From Desulfovibrio sp. (GTDB taxonomy: Bacteria; Desulfobacterota; Desulfovibrionia; Desulfovibrionales; Desulfovibrionaceae), in the NCBI GenBank assembly GCA_031279825.1, contig JAITHT010000090.1, positions 1-64,000 of the forward strand: DNA of 64,000 nt, read 5' to 3'. This document shows positions 9,865 to 36,431 of the stretch, in pieces (within the stretch, counting starts at the first letter, position 1; each line of letters opens with the position of its first letter). The position numbers and the translations under genes are program-made. The notes beneath the pieces are model-generated. The model was not told where the DNA came from. It searched no databases and saw only the letters and a program-made list of their open reading frames with translations.

Positions 9865-10630
9865 GATCGTTGCCGCCGGCAGGGACGCCGGCATCCTGCG
9901 AGACAGGGGCGGGGATACATTCGGCAAGACTCAGACGGCCCAACACTTCCTCCACGGCGGCGCGTCTGCTCTCCAGACGGCCTTCGGCCAGAGAGGATTC
10001 GCTTTCAACCACCATGCCTCCGGCGGAAACATTGTCGTCGCTCCGGACCCTCCAGCTTTTGACGTCAGGATAGCGCGACTGCGTGATGGCGAGGATATCG
10101 GCGATGACAGGCTCGTCTTCGGCGTTAACGCGGATGAGTATTTCGCGCCGTTTCTCCAAAAGGCTCACGGCCTCGACAAGGAGAGACTCCAGAACGGCCC
10201 GGCGTTCGGCCGTAAGCTGGATGGCGGTGATTTTTTCGACCGCCAGACGAGAGACGTTGACGATATCGTCGCGCCACTGATCGAAGATATGCGAACATTG
10301 GCCTTCAATGGCGCCGAGTACGGAAGAGACGGATTCGGCCATGGTGTTCCGGAAATTGTCAAGTTCGGCCTGAGCGTTGTCCATGCCGGCCTGGAATCCT
10401 TCCTGTTTGGCGGCTTCCTGGAGGCGCGTCGCTTCGGCTCTGGCTTCGGCGATGATGCTCGCGGCCAGGTGTTCGGCTTTTTCTTTCACCCTGTCCAAAT
10501 AGGCGCTTTCGTCGGCGGCCGTCCAAGAAGCGGCGCGGTTGCGCTCCAGACCGCTGAGAAGGCGTTCCCGCCCCTGGGAGAAAAGGGTGCCCCACTTGCC
10601 GTCGTCTTTTTTGGAATCAGACAAAGACAT
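9854..10630 (-). CDS. fliH: Flagellar assembly protein FliH
   Basis: 258 residues. Ala/Glu/Lys-rich N-terminal helix with coiled-coil character (~25-110), then the FliH/V-ATPase E-like C-terminal domain (~115-240). FliH is the peripheral stator-like regulator of FliI. The start MSLSDSKK at 10630 is preceded by GGTGGAGG and overlaps the 3' end of fliG by 14 bp, implying translational coupling. Identity rests on composition and position between fliG and fliI. Confidence 0.9.
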   Translation of the reverse strand: MSLSDSKKDDGKWGTLFSQGRERLLSGLERNRAASWTAADESAYLDRVKEKAEHLAASIIAEARAEATRLQEAAKQEGFQAGMDNAQAELDNFRNTMAESVSSVLGAIEGQCSHIFDQWRDDIVNVSRLAVEKITAIQLTAERRAVLESLLVEAVSLLEKRREILIRVNAEDEPVIADILAITQSRYPDVKSWRVRSDDNVSAGGMVVESESSLAEGRLESRRAAVEEVLGRLSLAECIPAPVSQDAGVPAGGNDHES

Positions 10631-11630
10631 CGCCTCCACCCCTGCTGATGACGACGCGGCCTTCGCCTTCCAGACGGCGTACGATCTTGACGATATTCTG
10701 CTGGGCCGCTTCCACGTCGGCAAGACGGGTCGGCCCCATGATTTCCAGATCTTCGCGAATCATGTTGCCGGCGCGTTCGGACATATTTTTGAAGAACAGT
10801 TCTTTCATATCGTCGGAGGCACCGCGCAGGGCCATGGTGAGGTCCTCGTTGGAAATTTCTTTAAGAAGCTCGCGGATGGAACGATCTTCAAGGGTTTTGA
10901 CGTCGTCGAACACGAACATGAGATTGCGGATTTCCTCGGCCATGGTCGGGGATTCTTCTTCGATTTCCGCCAGGACTTCTTCCTCGGTGGAGCGATCGAC
11001 GGCGTTGAGGATTTCCGCCACGGAGGCGACCCCGCCCACCTTTCTGCCTTCTTTGCCGCCCATGGCGATAAGCTGGCTTTGCAACACCTTGTCAACAGCC
11101 ATAAGCATTTCCTCCGGCACCGCCTCAAGTTTCGCCAGACGCATGAGTATTTCCGTGCGCGCGCCCGCGGGTAAATTGGTCAGCAGGTCCGCCGCGTGAT
11201 CGCTGGCCAGATTGCCGATAATAAGAGCGAGGGTTTGCGGGTGTTCGTTGCGCAGAATTTGGGCCAGCAGTTTGGGGCTGACCTTGCCGATTTCGCGGAA
11301 AGGCTGCGGTCCGGTGTCCAGATTCAGGAAGTCGGTGACATATTTAGCCGTATCGCTGTCAACATTGGGCAGAAGCAGTCGTTTGACGGCGTCCTGGCCG
11401 CCCCGGATCATTTCCCTTCCGGTAATCAGGGCGTGGTAATACTCCCGCAGGACCTCCTCCACGGTTTCTTTGGGCACGGTGTCCAGATCAACCATAGCCC
11501 TGGAGACGGCGGCCAATTCTTCCCGCTCCATGCGCTTGAACACTTCCGCGGCGAATTGTTCGCCGAGAGTGAGAAGAAGGACCGCTGTTTTTTTCGCGCC
11601 TTCAACGGACAGGGGAGAATCTGTTGCCAT
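10617..11630 (-). CDS. fliG: Flagellar motor switch protein FliG
   Basis: 337-residue C-ring protein that couples stator torque to the rotor. It shows the N-terminal FliF-binding domain, the middle EHPQ motif (NEHPQTLALIIGNL, ~130), and the C-terminal charged torque helix region (MFVFDDVKTLEDRSIRELLKEI) whose conserved Arg/Asp/Glu residues are present. The start MATDSPLS at 11630 has GGAGCAG upstream; the frame stays open a further 38 codons but without a ribosome site. Length is normal. Confidence 0.97.
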   Translation of the reverse strand: MATDSPLSVEGAKKTAVLLLTLGEQFAAEVFKRMEREELAAVSRAMVDLDTVPKETVEEVLREYYHALITGREMIRGGQDAVKRLLLPNVDSDTAKYVTDFLNLDTGPQPFREIGKVSPKLLAQILRNEHPQTLALIIGNLASDHAADLLTNLPAGARTEILMRLAKLEAVPEEMLMAVDKVLQSQLIAMGGKEGRKVGGVASVAEILNAVDRSTEEEVLAEIEEESPTMAEEIRNLMFVFDDVKTLEDRSIRELLKEISNEDLTMALRGASDDMKELFFKNMSERAGNMIREDLEIMGPTRLADVEAAQQNIVKIVRRLEGEGRVVISRGGGDVFV

Positions 11631-11971
11631 ACTGCTGCTCCTTGATAGCAGGTAACGCTTCAACCAGTCGTGTAACGGCGGGCAAAGCCCGCCTGCGACT
11701 ATTTCCGGCGGCAAGGGCCTTTCAGTATAGCCTTTGCCGGGCATTTTTACGCGACGCCCCGGATCGCGCGCCGGCTTTTTCTATACGCGAGTACGGGGTC
11801 CGTGTCGAGTAAGGGCGGGGAGCCCCGCATCCGGTCGAGTCCCGGCCGGGAATGGCGCGCGGACATACGTAATCGTTACGGATCTCAAAAAAGTATGAAG
11901 TGCGGAGGCGGGAGAAAGGAAGGAGCCTTTCACAAAAGCTCCCGCCCTTTCTCTCGGGGCGGCGTTTTCGC
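11631..11971. other. Intergenic spacer fliF-fliG (341 bp)
   Basis: No gene is supported here. It holds a perfect short hairpin GGCGGGC-AAA-GCCCGCC (11677-11693) near the fliG start and a GC-rich purine tract (11900-11960). Such a long gap inside an otherwise overlapping operon is unusual; it could hold an internal promoter or an mRNA structure that tunes fliG levels, but no clear promoter is visible. Confidence 0.5.
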
Positions 11972-13606
11972 TTACGCCGCCCGTGCCGGTACGGAACCGC
12001 TCTTGGCGGGCTCTTTGAGCCAGCTTCTGATGATACCGATGGCCTGCTCGATATTCTGTTCGCTCAACTGCAGGGAATGAGCCTTGATATCTTCAATTTT
12101 TTCCAGCATGGCGGTGGCGGCCACGGCTTCATCGTCCTCTTCCACGAGGGCGAGGCGTTCATCCGACTGGGGCAGTCCCTCAAGCCCTTCCAGCATACGA
12201 CCTTCCACCTTGGGCCGGATGAGCGCCAGCACCACCGGCCGCACTATCATGATCAGGAAGAGAAAGACCAGGAGGGCGTTGAGCAGGGGTTTGCCGAGGC
12301 GCATCGCGTATTCGGTGATGATGGAGGCCGTGCTGGGCGCGCTGTCCATATCCACGGCGCCGAAGGCGATGTTGCTTACCTCAAGGGTATCGCCGCGCGC
12401 GGAGTCCAGGCCGACGGCATTGGACACGAGCTGGCGGATGCGCTTGAGTTCCTCGTCGCTTCTCGGCTTGAAAGCCGTGACGCCGTCGGCGTTCTTTTCA
12501 TAGGTGCCGTCCACGATGACGGCTACGGTCAGGCGATCGATGATGCCCACCGTACCGACGATACTGTGCTCTTCCTTGTTGATTTCAAAGTTGGTGGTGC
12601 GCTGTTCCCGTGTGGCTTGCTGGTTGGACGTGGTGCCGCTGGGTCCGTCGCCGCGAAAATTGGGGTCGGGCACGCCGCCTTCAAGGGAGGCCCGGCCCTG
12701 CGTACTCTCTTCACTGCGCATTTCCGAGCGGACAACGGTTTTTTCCGGATCGTAAATTTCCTTGCGGACGGTTTTCTGGCTGAAATCCAGTTCGGCGTTG
12801 ACCCTGGCGATGACCCTGCCGGCACCCACCACGGGCATGAGCAATTCTTCAATACGGCGTTCGATATTCTGCTGGGTAAGCAGCTTGTGATCGAACTGGG
12901 TGCGGGTAAGGCCGTTGAGGGAGCCCTCTTCGTCGGGCTGGTACAAAACCTTGCCGTTGCTGTCGGCAATGGACACCCGGGTTTTATCCAGCCCTTCCAC
13001 TGCCATGGTCACCAGGTTGACGACGGCCTGAACATCCCTGGCTTCCATGTTTTTGCCGCCAGCGAGCTTTACAAGCACGGAAGCGGAAGGTTTTTGCTGC
13101 TCTTCAATAAACAGGCTGCGGTTGGGGATCACCAGATGGACCCGGGCGCTTTCCACGGAGGGAAATTCGCCCATGGTCCGGGCCAGTTCTCCCTCAAGGG
13201 CGCGACGATACGATATCTTTTGCACGAATTCCGGCAGCCCCATCTTCACGTCGTCAAAAATTTCGAAACCGACGCCCTGGCCGGTAACCAGTTTTTCTCC
13301 GGCGATCTTGATACGCTGGCTTTGCACTTTATCCTGGGGTATCAGGATGATAGTCCCTCTGCCGTCCTGTTCAAGACGATGGGAGATTTTTTGGGCTTCC
13401 AGCGACTTGACGATACGGTCGGCATCTTCAGGACTCAGATTGCTGTAGAGAGTGGCAAACTCGGGTCGGCTGAACCAGACGATGAGGCCGACGAATACCG
13501 CAATCACGAAAGTCGAGAGGGCACCGATGAACACACGCTGCGACATGGTGGCACCGGACCAGAAATTGCGGATGTAGTCGCTCGCAGTGGCGAAGATGGC
13601 AGGCAT
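11972..13606 (-). CDS. fliF: Flagellar MS-ring protein FliF
   Basis: 544-residue inner-membrane ring protein on which the basal body is built. The first transmembrane segment is at ~22-45 (VFIGALSTFVIAVFVGLIVW). The YscJ-like ring-building motif domain (~45-220) and the periplasmic beta-collar region (~230-420) follow. The second transmembrane segment is at ~435-455 (LLNALLVFLFLIMIVRPVVL), and the C-terminal cytoplasmic tail binds FliG. GGAGGAAAGG precedes the start. Length matches the family. Confidence 0.97.
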   Translation of the reverse strand: MPAIFATASDYIRNFWSGATMSQRVFIGALSTFVIAVFVGLIVWFSRPEFATLYSNLSPEDADRIVKSLEAQKISHRLEQDGRGTIILIPQDKVQSQRIKIAGEKLVTGQGVGFEIFDDVKMGLPEFVQKISYRRALEGELARTMGEFPSVESARVHLVIPNRSLFIEEQQKPSASVLVKLAGGKNMEARDVQAVVNLVTMAVEGLDKTRVSIADSNGKVLYQPDEEGSLNGLTRTQFDHKLLTQQNIERRIEELLMPVVGAGRVIARVNAELDFSQKTVRKEIYDPEKTVVRSEMRSEESTQGRASLEGGVPDPNFRGDGPSGTTSNQQATREQRTTNFEINKEEHSIVGTVGIIDRLTVAVIVDGTYEKNADGVTAFKPRSDEELKRIRQLVSNAVGLDSARGDTLEVSNIAFGAVDMDSAPSTASIITEYAMRLGKPLLNALLVFLFLIMIVRPVVLALIRPKVEGRMLEGLEGLPQSDERLALVEEDDEAVAATAMLEKIEDIKAHSLQLSEQNIEQAIGIIRSWLKEPAKSGSVPARAA

Positions 13607-13654
13607 GGACCTTTCCTCCGGAATATGACGTGATCGTTATAGTGAAAAAATGCC

Positions 13655-13984
13655 CTAAAACTGGAGACGCGTCAGTTCTTTATACGCTTCCATAATCTTA
13701 TTGCGCACGGCTGCCGTCATGTTCATCGCCAGACCGGCTTTTTGCATGGTGATCATGAGTTCATGCACGTTCTGGCTCTGGCCCGAGGCAAAGGCGTCAG
13801 TCATGACGGAACGTTCCGCCTGCAAACTGTTCACCTTTTCGAGCGAATGGGCCAGCACGTCGGCGAAATTGTTCGCCGACGCCTTTTCCGGCGAGAGGCC
13901 GCCGGATTGTATTTTCTTTTCCGCCTGGGCAAAGTTGCGCAGAGCGTTACCGTACGCCTGCAGGGCTGTCGTTTGAATAGTCAT
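13655..13984 (-). CDS. fliE: Flagellar hook-basal body protein FliE
   Basis: 109 residues. FliE joins the MS ring to the rod. The C-terminal half shows the family pattern (VHELMITMQKAGLAMNMTAAVRNKIMEAYKEL). GGAGCGCGAG lies upstream of the ATG. Placed between flgC and fliF as is standard. Confidence 0.96.
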   Translation of the reverse strand: MTIQTTALQAYGNALRNFAQAEKKIQSGGLSPEKASANNFADVLAHSLEKVNSLQAERSVMTDAFASGQSQNVHELMITMQKAGLAMNMTAAVRNKIMEAYKELTRLQF

Positions 13985-14005
13985 ACACTCGCGCTCCGGT
14001 CATTA

Positions 14006-14443
14006 TTAGCGGTTGATTTCAAGAGCTTTGTTATACATCTGCTTGATGGAATCCACGGTGGTGACGTTGGCTTCATAACCGCGCTGAGCCGTCATGAGGG
14101 CCGCCATCTCCTCCACGACGTTAACGTCGGGATACGCCACAAAGCCGTTTTCATCGGCATCGGGATGCCCGGGCTCGTATACCATCTTGGCGGGGCGGTT
14201 ATCGACGGCCACGGACTGCACGCGTACGCCGCGCATTTCACGATCAAGGGCGCTTTCCATATGTTTTTTGAAAGGCGCGTCGACTTCCACGGATTCCATG
14301 ACGACGCTCCGCCGGCGATAGGGGCCGCCGTCAGGCGTACGCGTCGTTTTAGCGTTGGCAAGGTTCATGGAGATGATGTTGATATGCGTCCGTTCCGCGC
14401 TTAAGGCGGAGGCGCTCATGTCAAGTGCGGTGATGAAGTCCAT
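14006..14443 (-). CDS. flgC: Flagellar basal-body rod protein FlgC
   Basis: 145-residue proximal rod protein. The N-terminal helix includes the rod/hook consensus (NIISMNLANAKTTRTPDGGPYRR in two parts), and the C-terminal signature region is EEMAALMTAQRGYEANV. Its ATG shares one base with the flgB stop (TAATG), so the two are translationally coupled; GGAAGGG lies upstream inside flgB. Confidence 0.97.
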   Translation of the reverse strand: MDFITALDMSASALSAERTHINIISMNLANAKTTRTPDGGPYRRRSVVMESVEVDAPFKKHMESALDREMRGVRVQSVAVDNRPAKMVYEPGHPDADENGFVAYPDVNVVEEMAALMTAQRGYEANVTTVDSIKQMYNKALEINR

Positions 14444-14853
14444 TATTTCTGCCCTTCCGTAATAATCTGTTTCAATCCTTCAAACCTGCTGCGCAGGGCT
14501 GAGGCCAGCGCCGAATAGTGCAGATTCGTCTTGGCCATGACGGCCATTTCCTTATCAATATCCACCCGGTCTTCGCCGTGCACTACGCGGGGTTTGAACG
14601 CTTTTTCCCATTCCGGACCGAATCCCTCGGCATTAAAGACCGCGGGCATGTGCTTTGCGTCCGTGCGGGCCATCTTGCCTCTGGCGTCAATACCCAGAGC
14701 GGCCTGCAACTCGTCCTCGAAGCTGAGCGAGCGGGCTTTGTAGCCGGGGGTTTTGACGTTCGCCATATTACTGGAGATCACGTTTTGACGTTGCAACTGC
14801 ATGTCAAGGACTTTGCCCATGAGGTTCAGGTCCGATTCAAACAGGCCTTTCAC
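14443..14853 (-). CDS. flgB: Flagellar basal-body rod protein FlgB
   Basis: 136-residue proximal rod protein with the N-terminal motif NVISSNMANVKTPGYKA. I favour the GTG at 14853 (MKGLFESDLNLMGKV). GGAGGG sits 7 bp before it and the product then begins as FlgB proteins usually do; a TTG five codons upstream lacks any ribosome site. First gene of the operon, about 60 bp downstream of a sigma-54 promoter. Confidence 0.95.
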   Translation of the reverse strand: MKGLFESDLNLMGKVLDMQLQRQNVISSNMANVKTPGYKARSLSFEDELQAALGIDARGKMARTDAKHMPAVFNAEGFGPEWEKAFKPRVVHGEDRVDIDKEMAVMAKTNLHYSALASALRSRFEGLKQIITEGQK

Positions 14854-14915
14854 ACCGGTTCCCTCCAAAGTTTGTGCGGAGCGGGAAAATATTTCCCAGC
14901 CAAATGCGAAATTGT

Positions 14916-14932
14916 AAGCAATAATTGTTCCA
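14916..14932 (-). promoter_or_regulatory. Sigma-54 (RpoN) promoter of the flgB-fliI operon
   Basis: Minus strand reads TGGAACAATTATTGCTT. The invariant GG (-24) and GC (-12) are separated by exactly 10 bp and TTGC matches the -12 element. The transcription start would fall near 14904, about 50 bp before the flgB GTG. Sigma-54 control of flagellar rod genes is well known in several proteobacteria. Confidence 0.8.
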
Positions 14933-15290: not shown

Positions 15291-15308
15291 TTGGCATGAT
15301 AGTTGCTC
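15291..15308 (+). promoter_or_regulatory. Sigma-54 (RpoN) promoter of the TPR-protein gene
   Basis: TTGGCATGATAGTTGCTC matches the RpoN consensus TGGCACG-N4-TTGCW at all but one position, with GG-N10-GC spacing. Predicted start about 15320, 80 bp before the gene's ATG. Confidence 0.82.
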
Positions 15309-15399
15309 AAACAGAATCGTCGCCGCCGTGCGCCGGAAAAAATCACCGCGGCTTGATTTGTCTGAACAGGGAACCATATATTACTTAGAGGAGGGGATC

Positions 15400-15957
15400 A
15401 TGAATAACCCGGATTACGAAATCAATAAGGAACTGGGCGAATGCTATCTGTTCATGGGCGAATATGATAAAGCCCACAGCTATTACACCAAGGCCGTCAC
15501 CTGCAACGACAGCGTGGCCGAACCTTACATGGGCCTTGCCGCCATTGCCGTGAGCCAGGGCAGGCTTGACGATGCCCATACCCTCTACGCTAAGGCCAAT
15601 GCCCTTGAGCCGGGCGAAAAGCCCTTGACCGGCCTCGGCATGATCGAGGTGGAACAGGGCAAGTATGCCGAGGCTTTCGCGAATTTCTCCGCCGCCCTGG
15701 ACTATAACCCCGGCAATATGATGGTGGTGAACAGCCTGTTGCAGTTGGCCCATGTGCTGGGCCGTCTGCCGGAGATCATCCCGTATCTGGAAGCGGCCCT
15801 TGATCTCGGCGACACGGAGGCCGTCCGTTTCGCCCTGTCCGCCTGCCTGTTGGCCGTGGGGCGCGAAGATGAAGCGAAAACGCATCTGGAAATTTTGATT
15901 GGCGAATACCCGTCCAACGACAACGCCAAACAACTTTACGCGCAACTAGCCGCGTAA
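15400..15957 (+). CDS. TPR-repeat protein under sigma-54 control
   Basis: 185 residues made almost wholly of tetratricopeptide repeats (about five 34-residue units, e.g. ELGECYLFMGEYDKAHSYYTKA and GLGMIEVEQGKYAEAFANFSAA). The role is a protein-protein scaffold; no catalytic motif and no signal peptide. The start at 15400 has GGAGGGG 6 bp upstream; the frame extends 24 codons further but without support. The perfect sigma-54 promoter and the divergent flagellar operon suggest a motility or chemotaxis role, but this is inference. Confidence 0.85.
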   Translation: MNNPDYEINKELGECYLFMGEYDKAHSYYTKAVTCNDSVAEPYMGLAAIAVSQGRLDDAHTLYAKANALEPGEKPLTGLGMIEVEQGKYAEAFANFSAALDYNPGNMMVVNSLLQLAHVLGRLPEIIPYLEAALDLGDTEAVRFALSACLLAVGREDEAKTHLEILIGEYPSNDNAKQLYAQLAA

Positions 15958-34199: not shown

Positions 34200-34368
34200 C
34201 ATCAGAACTTCCTTTGTGGTCTGAAACCCTGGCCGAAAGGGCATATAGCCCCGACTTAAGCCCTGAAGGGCTTCGGTTTCTTTCCGGGGCGGAAAGCTCG
34301 GGAGGGGTAAAAAATCCTCCCGAGCGCGAGACGCGAAGCCCTAAGGGGATTCGCTACCTCATTTGGAT
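34200..34368 (-). repeat. Structured repeat, copy 6 (standard form), upstream of dnaK
   Basis: 169-bp minus-strand copy with intact ends. Its ATG (34202-34200) opens a 66-codon frame that ends at 34002, overlapping the dnaK start codon by 22 bp. The CTCGGGAGGATTTTTTACCC hairpin is retained. Located 177 bp upstream of dnaK, so it probably sits in the dnaK leader or promoter region. Confidence 0.92.
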
Positions 34369-34721: not shown

Positions 34722-34738
34722 TGGCATTTTTTTTGCTT
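34722..34738 (+). promoter_or_regulatory. Sigma-54 (RpoN) promoter of the lysozyme-like gene
   Basis: TGGCATTTTTTTTGCTT shows GG-N10-GC spacing and a good match to TGGCAC-N5-TTGC. The predicted start is near 34748, 60 bp before the ATG at 34809. It lies in otherwise AT-rich sequence. Confidence 0.75.
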
Positions 34739-34808
34739 TTATAAGGCCGCAATCTTTAACATACTTTTTAACAAGGCGCATAACGACTGAGACAGCGGGA
34801 GATTTGCC

Positions 34809-36431
34809 ATGGTGAGCGGTAAGCCTATTTTGACCTTTGGCGATAACCGGTACGAGGTTTCTTCACAAAACCAGCAACGATCCGGCGGCGCGAAAATCCG
34901 TAAGGATCAGCCCCTGAGTACTTTCGCGTCATATTTGTCTGCTATGGACTATGGGGGAAAGGCCGAGGCGCAACAGAACAATCGCAAGTCCACGGGCGCG
35001 CAGGCAGGCGCCCAGGCGCGTCAATATACGCCTGTTCCGCAGCCGGCGAACACGGGGGGCGCGACAGGGCATGCCCTGAAAAGCGCCGAATCTTTCGCGC
35101 GGCGGGCTGCGGCGGGCTATCCTGAATTGAGCCGTGCCGGCATGGCGGAAAGGCATCGCGGCGATTCCCCCGGTGTTTCCCCATCCCGCCGGAATACCCC
35201 GGCGATTGGCGGCAACAGCAAGGTTGAGGCGGGGGCGTACGCCCGATCCGGCATGGAAGCATTCAATGGCGGCGGCAATATGGGGACGGCCCTTGCCCGG
35301 AAGCATATGCCGCGTATTTCCGGGCAAACGACTCTCGGCCGTTACGGTTTCGGCATGGTTGACACCCGTAAGGCGGATGCCGGCGTAAGCGCCGCGCAAC
35401 CGCGCGGCGCGGGACAAAAGTTTGACGGCGACTATGCGGGCTACGGCGGAAAATTGAAAAACGGCCAAAGTTTTCTCACGCACGGCTTCGGCGGAGGGAA
35501 TGCGGAACTGGCGTTGCGTAGCGTCGGCTACGATATGCGGGAAATGCAGCCCGATGTCACCTATGCCAGACGTCTGGATTCGGGCGCGGGCGTCGCCGTG
35601 CGTTCCGGAAAGACCGATTCCGGCGATGTCCGGCCGGCCGCCGCGGCCTATAGCGAAGGCGGCAAGGGCGCTCGCGCCGCCGATATGCCCGGCGGGTACG
35701 GGAAAACATCCGAGGGTCGGGCGGCGGTCGTTCCTTCCAGCCGTTCTTTGGCGCAATCTTTCTACACCATGGTCGATAAAGGGTTGGGGGCTCTGGCCGC
35801 GAAGTTCGAATCAGGTTCTGAGGGCATTTCCGCTATCGGTTTCGACCGTGTGGGAGGCACCTCGTACGGCAAGTATCAGATCGCTTCCCGTGTGGGCACC
35901 ATGGCGGCTTTTATCGAATACCTGGGAGAAAAGGCTCCGGACATCGCAAAACGGCTTCAGGCGGCCGGCCCGGCGAATACCGGCGGCCGTTCCGGCAAAA
36001 TGCCCGCCGAGTGGAAAAACATTGCCGGCGAAGAACCCGCCCGTTTCGAAAAGCTGCAGGAAGACTTCATCCTCGCCAGTCATTTCGAGCCGGCCATGCG
36101 CAGCATCAGCGAGAGCACGGGAATCGGCTTCGCCCACATGCCTGAGGCGCTGCAAGAGGTGCTTTTCAGTACCGCCGTACAGCACGGACCCTTGGGAGCG
36201 GTGCGTATTTTCAATCAGGCCATGAACAGCGTGGGCGTCAATAAACTGCGGAGCGGCAACGGCGTGGGCACTATAGTCTCGGAATCGTTCAAACGGGCGG
36301 GCAGGCAGCTTATCAAGCAGATCTACGCGCTGCGCGCCGGGCAGTTCAGTCTTTCCAGTTCGGAAGTGCAGACGGCGGTGAAAAAACGCCTGAGCCAGGA
36401 AATGAAAGAAGCGCTGGGGATGATGGTGTGA
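34809..36431 (+). CDS. Large protein with C-terminal lysozyme-like domain, unknown function
   Basis: 540 residues in two parts. Residues ~1-310 are low-complexity, Gly/Ala/Arg/Gln-rich, probably disordered. Residues ~320-540 form a conserved globular domain: AAKFESGSEGISAIGFDRVGG, TSYGKYQIASRVG, PANTGGRSGKMPAEWK, EVLFSTAVQHGPLGA. It resembles muramidase/chitosanase-like lysozyme folds, with the Glu of KFESG a candidate catalytic residue. No signal peptide is seen, so export would need another route, such as the flagellar apparatus. GGGAG precedes the ATG and a sigma-54 promoter lies upstream. The role is inferred only: perhaps peptidoglycan remodelling for flagella. Confidence 0.6.
   Translation: MVSGKPILTFGDNRYEVSSQNQQRSGGAKIRKDQPLSTFASYLSAMDYGGKAEAQQNNRKSTGAQAGAQARQYTPVPQPANTGGATGHALKSAESFARRAAAGYPELSRAGMAERHRGDSPGVSPSRRNTPAIGGNSKVEAGAYARSGMEAFNGGGNMGTALARKHMPRISGQTTLGRYGFGMVDTRKADAGVSAAQPRGAGQKFDGDYAGYGGKLKNGQSFLTHGFGGGNAELALRSVGYDMREMQPDVTYARRLDSGAGVAVRSGKTDSGDVRPAAAAYSEGGKGARAADMPGGYGKTSEGRAAVVPSSRSLAQSFYTMVDKGLGALAAKFESGSEGISAIGFDRVGGTSYGKYQIASRVGTMAAFIEYLGEKAPDIAKRLQAAGPANTGGRSGKMPAEWKNIAGEEPARFEKLQEDFILASHFEPAMRSISESTGIGFAHMPEALQEVLFSTAVQHGPLGAVRIFNQAMNSVGVNKLRSGNGVGTIVSESFKRAGRQLIKQIYALRAGQFSLSSSEVQTAVKKRLSQEMKEALGMMV

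Follow-up and report, generated by a model that had tools for sequence, protein, structure and literature searches.

A gene in the genome of a Desulfovibrio sp. encodes a 540-residue protein (P0001) that, in our assessment, is likely to be a stand-alone muramidase dedicated to the flagellum, exported as an early substrate of the flagellar type III system and opening the peptidoglycan for the rod. Export, timing, activity and role are inferred; the domain, its fold, the putative catalytic residues, the conservation of an N-terminal motif and of a promoter, the co-occurrence with flagella, the synteny and the state of FlgJ were computed. The initial annotation of this DNA had already inferred flagellar export and a role in the passage of the rod, and this inference gains support here from an FxxxPhi motif, from co-occurrence with flagella and from flagellar synteny in distant relatives.

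How the flagellum crosses the wall where FlgJ lacks a muramidase has been only partly answered, and the protein described here is a concrete candidate. To our knowledge, a muramidase split off in trans would, if that reading is true, be the first wall hydrolase outside the rod cap to use a flagellar early-substrate signal. In open-access PMC, subscription papers not being covered, we found nothing that describes this enzyme as flagellar; separate peptidoglycan enzymes for flagella have been proposed for delta-proteobacteria (PMC8517470). If our proposal is correct, the flagellar export channel transports a free-standing wall-cutting enzyme, a weapon-type domain like that of VgrG3 can be put to work in a housekeeping machine, and further flagellar cargo should be findable by motif searches. 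Cultured carriers exist, for example, Desulfovibrio cuneatus.

Genomic context of the muramidase gene

The genome assembly comprises 2.2 Mb and is 83% complete; the window, that is, the whole stretch of DNA that was analyzed, 64,000 nucleotides long, corresponds to bases 1-64000 of contig C86. The nearest named relatives of this genome are Desulfovibrio MAGs and isolates, D. cuneatus DSM 11391 (G007) among them. The muramidase gene, flanked by dnaK and an outer-membrane efflux gene that are both encoded on the opposite strand, is a lone cistron in the 64-kb window, where no flagellar gene lies directly beside it; the same window carries a flagellar operon (Table 1).

Table 1 Coordinates of the muramidase gene, its parts and the flagellar operon in the 64-kb window
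Feature	Position	Strand	Remarks and basis
Sigma-54-type (-24/-12) promoter-like site TGGCATTTTTTTTGCT	34722..34737	+	GG-N10-GC spacing; kept upstream of orthologs
RBS-like GGGAG	34797..34801	+	7 bases ahead of the muramidase ATG; sequence
Muramidase gene, 540 aa (P0001)	34809..36431	+	ATG at 34809, stop ends 36431; sequence, ORF
Residues 3-10, SGKPILTF	34815..34838	+	Short non-polar patch, possible first export signal; genus consensus KPxLxF
Residues 39-43, FASYL	34923..34937	+	Gate-recognition-type FxxxPhi motif; conserved in relatives
Residues 44-325, Gly/Ala-rich linker	34938..35783	+	Mostly predicted disordered; structure prediction
Residues 326-531, PF21277 muramidase domain	35784..36401	+	Profile match, fold, invariant residues
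E334	35808-35810	+	Invariant putative catalytic residue of P0001
D346	35844-35846	+	Invariant putative catalytic residue of P0001
T351	35859-35861	+	Invariant putative catalytic residue of P0001
Flagellar operon flgB, flgC, fliE, fliF, fliG	10617..14868	-	In the window that carries the muramidase gene
Sigma-54-type site, one mismatch	14917..14932	-	Upstream of the flgB-flgC-fliE-fliF-fliG operon

A C-terminal muramidase domain with a lysozyme-like fold

The last ~220 residues of P0001 had been annotated as resembling a muramidase, with the suggestion that their predicted structure be compared with lysozyme and chitosanase folds; both the profile search and the fold comparison agree with this reading. 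P0001 matches PF21277 at 103.4 bits (cut-off 27) over profile positions 1-182 of 183, and no other domain was found in it; the same region also matches the VgrG3 domain of Vibrio cholerae, whose structure has been solved. The structure predicted for the last 230 residues has a mean pLDDT of 91.3 and a lysozyme/chitosanase-like fold. The best fold match is the VgrG3 muramidase (4nso/4noo, Z 18.7; rmsd 3.1 over 189 aligned residues for 4nso; Foldseek E of 1e-7 for 4noo), followed by GH46 chitosanases (Z ~11-14), Brucella SagA (10.6), pesticin (9.4) and T4 lysozyme entries (7-8); families absent from the match list are not excluded by this comparison. Profile searches of P0001 yielded no match to the VgrG spike domain, the SLT domain, PF10135, PF01832 or Flg_hook, and NCBIfam holds no family for the protein.

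Three residues of the domain, E334, D346 and T351 (full-length numbering), are unchanged in all 32 aligned relatives. By analogy, they would form a GH24/pesticin-like Glu-Asp-Thr set, from which activity is inferred; the comparison is with the catalytic residues of GH24 lysozyme and pesticin. Those of pesticin are named in the literature (PMC9927483).

An N-terminal motif of the rod/hook export type

The annotation of the N-terminal portion as long and disordered is borne out by the full-length structure prediction, where pLDDT falls below 50 at 319 of the 540 residues and is low throughout residues 1-37 and 47-217. The sole helix predicted within the first 60 residues (40-47) starts inside FASYL, which conforms to the FxxxPhi motif, defined in our comparison of N-termini as Phe with Leu, Met, Ile or Val four residues on, some 30-50 residues from the N-terminus. 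FxxxPhi is the published gate-recognition motif of rod and hook subunits and of FliK, and binds FlhB (PMC4183434, PMC10965912); in Salmonella, at least 30 residues separate the motif from the N-terminus, where a non-polar patch is required as well (PMC8983047). The mean hydropathy of the N-termini in our comparison is 0.03 at residues 2-12 versus -1.01 at residues 13-24, with no formal control.

The motif was counted in two sets of relatives, with N-terminal starts picked by eye in the first and by a fixed rule in the second. The 43 carriers of the muramidase include G028, which has a Sec/TM-type copy only, G032, with a missing N-terminus, and G055, with one internal TAG; given the limits of the first two, 41 N-termini, that of G055 among them, entered the first test. 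FxxxPhi was present at residues 28-50 in 38 of these 41, compared to a mean of 4.4 and a maximum of 12 in 2000 runs with shuffled N-termini, and whereas the spacing of four between Phe and the hydrophobic residue gave this count, other spacings gave 4-10. The second set comprised 67 loci (80 named loci kept, minus 13 duplicates of the first set), D. vulgaris Hildenborough not being represented among the 80; of these 67, 65 had the motif at residues 25-60 and 61 at residues 28-50; shuffling gave means of 10.0 and 6.5, respectively, with a maximum of 20 in 1000 runs for residues 25-60. In this set, spacing 3 was also frequent (50/67) because many of the motifs read like FAxLM. The start of one locus counted as a match (L157) looks wrong, as do those of both misses (L189 and L197).

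Windows of equal width from the rest of the linker contained FxxxPhi in only 20 of 130 cases, and when the N-termini were clustered such that no similarity was detectable between clusters, 28 of the 29 clusters had the motif. The 104 proteins behind the cluster and hydropathy counts leave out L157, L189, L197 and L073. None of these 104 N-termini contains a Sec/TM-like hydrophobic stretch, defined as a 13-residue window with a mean hydropathy of at least 1.9 within the first 60 residues, and P0001 thus lacks a signal peptide, as had been proposed; by the same criterion, a Sec/TM segment was found in 4/4 selected paralogs.

In the Desulfovibrio genome itself, the fixed rule places FxxxPhi at residue 39 of the muramidase, 45 of FlgB (FEDEL), 40 of FliE (FADVL), 31 of FlgD, 43 of FlgE and 48 of FliK; FlgJ and FlgC have it only at 56 and 58, respectively. 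FxxxPhi on its own is a short motif and no proof of export.

The linker is not featureless because two blocks within it are conserved in a genus-level alignment, one at 35313-35372 (RISGxPxTGRxGIGMxDTRK) and the other, which contains a short predicted helix, at 35469-35534 (SFLxxGFAxxxAExALRxLGY).

Distribution and gene neighborhoods

With the single protein as the query, no match was obtained in named genomes; an alignment-based scan succeeded. In the sample of relatives, the muramidase is found in 43 of 59 genomes including its own (42 of the 58 others). The last ~215 residues of the orthologs are mostly 43-60% identical, and the first 300 vary in both length and sequence. All carriers are among the flagellin-positive relatives (43/55 versus 0/4 flagellin-negative ones), and all 43 have FlgJ, the enzyme being present in none of the 6 FlgJ-negative relatives. 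Among 148 genomes sampled across the phylum, the source genome included, 13 of 85 FlgI-positive genomes encode the enzyme compared to 0 of 63 FlgI-negative ones (Fisher p 6e-4, not corrected for relatedness). Because 10 of the 53 FlgJ-positive relatives lack the muramidase, it is not universally needed and other solutions exist.

In four distant relatives, MAGs named Desulfarculales, Desulfobacteraceae, Syntrophobacterales and Syntrophobacteraceae (L140, L143, L147 and L193), the next gene 3' of the muramidase is fliK (PF02120), 219-354 bases away, and in L143 and L147, fliK is followed by a gene of the FlgE/F/G family. In D. cuneatus, flgI-flgJ-flgN-flgK starts ~2 kb 3' of the muramidase gene, past one unrelated gene. 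Clustering of the neighbors at 109 loci revealed no other recurrent flagellar neighbor among annotated families. A glycosyltransferase family 9 gene lies near the muramidase in 23 of the 109 loci, mostly directly downstream (for example, L180:4657-6465).

Most genomes contain a single copy of the gene, and one (G019) contains three in all. Copies of the muramidase domain with a Sec or TM-like N-terminus were observed as well, namely, L079, L087, the first copy of L074, and L065, the sole copy of G028. Given the existence of such paralogs, no single export route can be assigned to the PF21277 domain; their N-termini fit, by inference, with a periplasmic site of action. Two relatives (L086 and L089) have an extra phage-like frame of 778-998 aa with the muramidase domain. 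In G055 (L080, G055:C16:37140-37748), the muramidase frame contains an internal TAG, which reflects either a broken gene or a sequencing error.

FlgJ and other wall enzymes of the genome

The initial annotation would have been refuted by a structure without a lysozyme fold or by a canonical FlgJ muramidase, and neither was observed: a search for the PF01832 glucosaminidase gave no match in this 83% complete genome; its FlgJ (L090:10392-11939) consists of the rod-binding domain PF10135 and an M23 domain. The canonical M23 metal site is made up of the motifs HxGxD and HxHFE. In this FlgJ, they read WNSGID and VLHFE, so that the first His is replaced by Asn, and the M23 domain lacks a metal ligand and probably does not cut.

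Among the 35 FlgJ proteins that were read, from the 53 genomes that have FlgJ, the M23 metal site is canonical in 8 and degenerate in 15, and the M23 domain is absent in 12, among which are short FlgJs and one that is truncated where its contig ends. The muramidase accompanies all 15 degenerate M23 domains and 6 of the 8 canonical ones, a link that is suggestive, not significant. It is possible, although we consider it somewhat unlikely, that the job of FlgJ is split in trans, with the decayed peptidase persisting as a peptidoglycan-binding or docking module that recruits the co-exported FxxxPhi muramidase at the rod tip.

Other glycan-cleaving enzymes of the genome are an SLT_2 (MltB-like) transglycosylase encoded next to flgI, a LysM-SLT MltD-like protein and an MltC-like protein, all with Sec/TM-type N-termini as judged by eye; any of these might open the wall for the rod. 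The SLT_2 gene (L090:7764-9002, minus strand) is divergent from the flgI-flgJ operon.

A conserved sigma-54-type promoter site

The GG-N10-GC site and the 540-residue frame behind it, as first annotated, are both read directly from the sequence: TGGCATTTTTTTTGCT begins 87 bases 5' of the muramidase ATG. The window contains only two perfect matches to TGGCAYNNNNNTTGCW, at 15292 and 34722, and 8 with at most one mismatch versus 4.5 expected, so that a single site of this type proves little. Conservation is more informative. With weights following the consensus TGGCACG-N4-TTGCW, a site scoring at least 22 was detected within 220 bp upstream of 28 of the 41 first-set orthologs, compared to 0.5 expected from dinucleotide shuffles and to 23 of 382 control ORF starts in the same loci (from which the muramidase ORFs were not removed); in the second set, the site was found upstream in 44 of 67 loci, with 1.2 expected in shuffles.

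The initial annotation also took sigma-54 control to be shared with the flagellar operon. The flgB operon is preceded by a sigma-54-type site with one mismatch; a site of the known flagellar activator near the muramidase promoter was not confirmed. The D. vulgaris flagellar activator DVU1063 binds GGCA-N4-TGCC (PMC3333781), and its regulon is tabulated (PMC4641369). Upstream of the muramidase, this sequence occurs with at most one mismatch in 6 of 40 regions (L073 left out) versus 4.7 expected, one of the matches being exact. Because the promoter site is conserved and GGCA-N4-TGCC is not enriched, control of the muramidase by sigma-54 is well supported and control by DVU1063 is not demonstrated. 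The second perfect sigma-54-type site (15292-15307) precedes a small TPR protein gene (15388-15957, plus strand) that is divergent from the flgB operon.

Proposed mechanism and alternatives

Under the scenario that we favor, the muramidase would be made from the sigma-54 promoter, dock unchaperoned at the export gate protein FlhB via FASYL, and, as is the case for FlgB, FliE, FlgD and FliK, cross the export channel unfolded during the rod/hook stage. On reaching the periplasm, it would refold, and the VgrG3-type lysozyme-fold domain would cut glycan strands near the rod tip, allowing the rod to pass through the peptidoglycan. The disordered linker would set the enzyme apart from its export signal and may hold the enzyme to the nascent rod, for which FlgJ would provide the cap.

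The same export route could instead deliver the muramidase outside the cell, where it would act, for example, on neighboring bacteria or surfaces rather than on the wall of the cell itself to admit the rod. Among solved structures, its nearest relative is the domain of a T6SS effector with antibacterial action, the gene stands in the window as a lone cistron, and one Escherichia strain has a pesticin orthologue in a variable part of its flag-2 flagellar locus (PMC6993521). However, the motif belongs to the rod/hook class, the gene is usually present in a single copy and kept across the order and beyond with the putative catalytic residues invariant in 32/32 relatives, and no immunity-like partner is evident among the recurrent neighbors, although no family-specific search was made; we therefore regard extracellular use as unlikely. 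The lack of the enzyme in every one of the 63 FlgI-negative genomes sampled across the phylum, the presence of FxxxPhi in nearly all N-termini and the adjacency of fliK in distant relatives speak against a general envelope autolysin or turnover enzyme that reaches the periplasm by an unrecognized route and is linked to the flagellum by co-regulation only. Such an enzyme would account for a sigma-54 site that is conserved without a demonstrated flagellar activator site and for the clustering of glycosyltransferase family 9 genes nearby in 23 of the 109 loci, and still appears quite unlikely to us.

That the wall is opened for the rod by the SLT_2 transglycosylase, with the muramidase redundant or minor, is suggested by the divergent arrangement of the SLT_2 gene and the flgI-flgJ operon and has a precedent in SltF and Borrelia BB0259, which are separate flagellar transglycosylases (PMC8517470); we nevertheless consider this very unlikely, given that it is the muramidase that has the flagellar export motif, whereas N-termini of the Sec/TM type were recognized by eye in the SLT enzymes. 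We find it hardly credible that the protein acts as a T6SS effector or descends from a phage lysin: the Pfam domain is named after a T6SS spike protein, the matches in PHROGs belong to large phage proteins, of which they form parts, and two relatives have the additional frame of 778-998 aa bearing the domain, but the gene is chromosomal and kept across the family and the order. The T6SS link was rejected, with no match to a sheath gene (VipB) in the 83% complete source genome (G000), T6SS in 15 of 43 carriers versus 7 of 16 non-carriers and no VgrG domain in P0001. A phage origin of the source genome's own copy was rejected as well, the long phage-like frames sitting beside an ordinary copy in two genomes.

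Relationship to known systems

The flagellum-dedicated muramidase that we propose resembles FlgJ of beta- and gamma-proteobacteria, which combines the rod cap with a GH73 domain, in that a peptidoglycan-cleaving domain passes through the flagellar type III system, which is a prediction in the case of the muramidase. It differs in lacking a rod-binding domain, in having PF21277 instead of PF01832, and in being encoded by a gene of its own in a genome that also has FlgJ. FliK is likewise a rod/hook-type substrate with an N-terminal FxxxPhi motif, and its gene is the neighbor in four distant relatives; the muramidase, however, has no Flg_hook domain and contains a C-terminal enzyme in its place.

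SltF of Rhodobacter sphaeroides is exported via the Sec pathway. Together with BB0259 of Borrelia, it is comparable to the muramidase as a separate enzyme beside a hydrolase-less FlgJ (PMC8517470). Both of these enzymes are of the SLT type, whereas the muramidase combines a lysozyme/chitosanase fold with a flagellar gate motif and lacks a Sec signal. The C-terminal muramidase of VgrG3 from Vibrio cholerae (4NOO, 4NSO) belongs to the same family and has the same fold (Z 18.7, 24% identity), but is borne on a T6SS spike and targets rival cells, in contrast to the muramidase described here, which stands alone with a flagellar-type N-terminus. GH46 chitosanases and pesticin have related folds (Z 11-14 and ~9, respectively) but only 10-17% identity and another substrate or mode of delivery.

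A dispersed repeat in the window

Apart from the features listed above, the window contains a dispersed repeat, TTTCAGACCACAAAGGAAGTTCTGATG, at 34200-34226 and in six other places. Allowing for at most 3 mismatches, there are 7 copies in the window, with 0 expected, and 37 exact copies in the genome. The repeat terminates in a GGAAG-ATG-like start signal.
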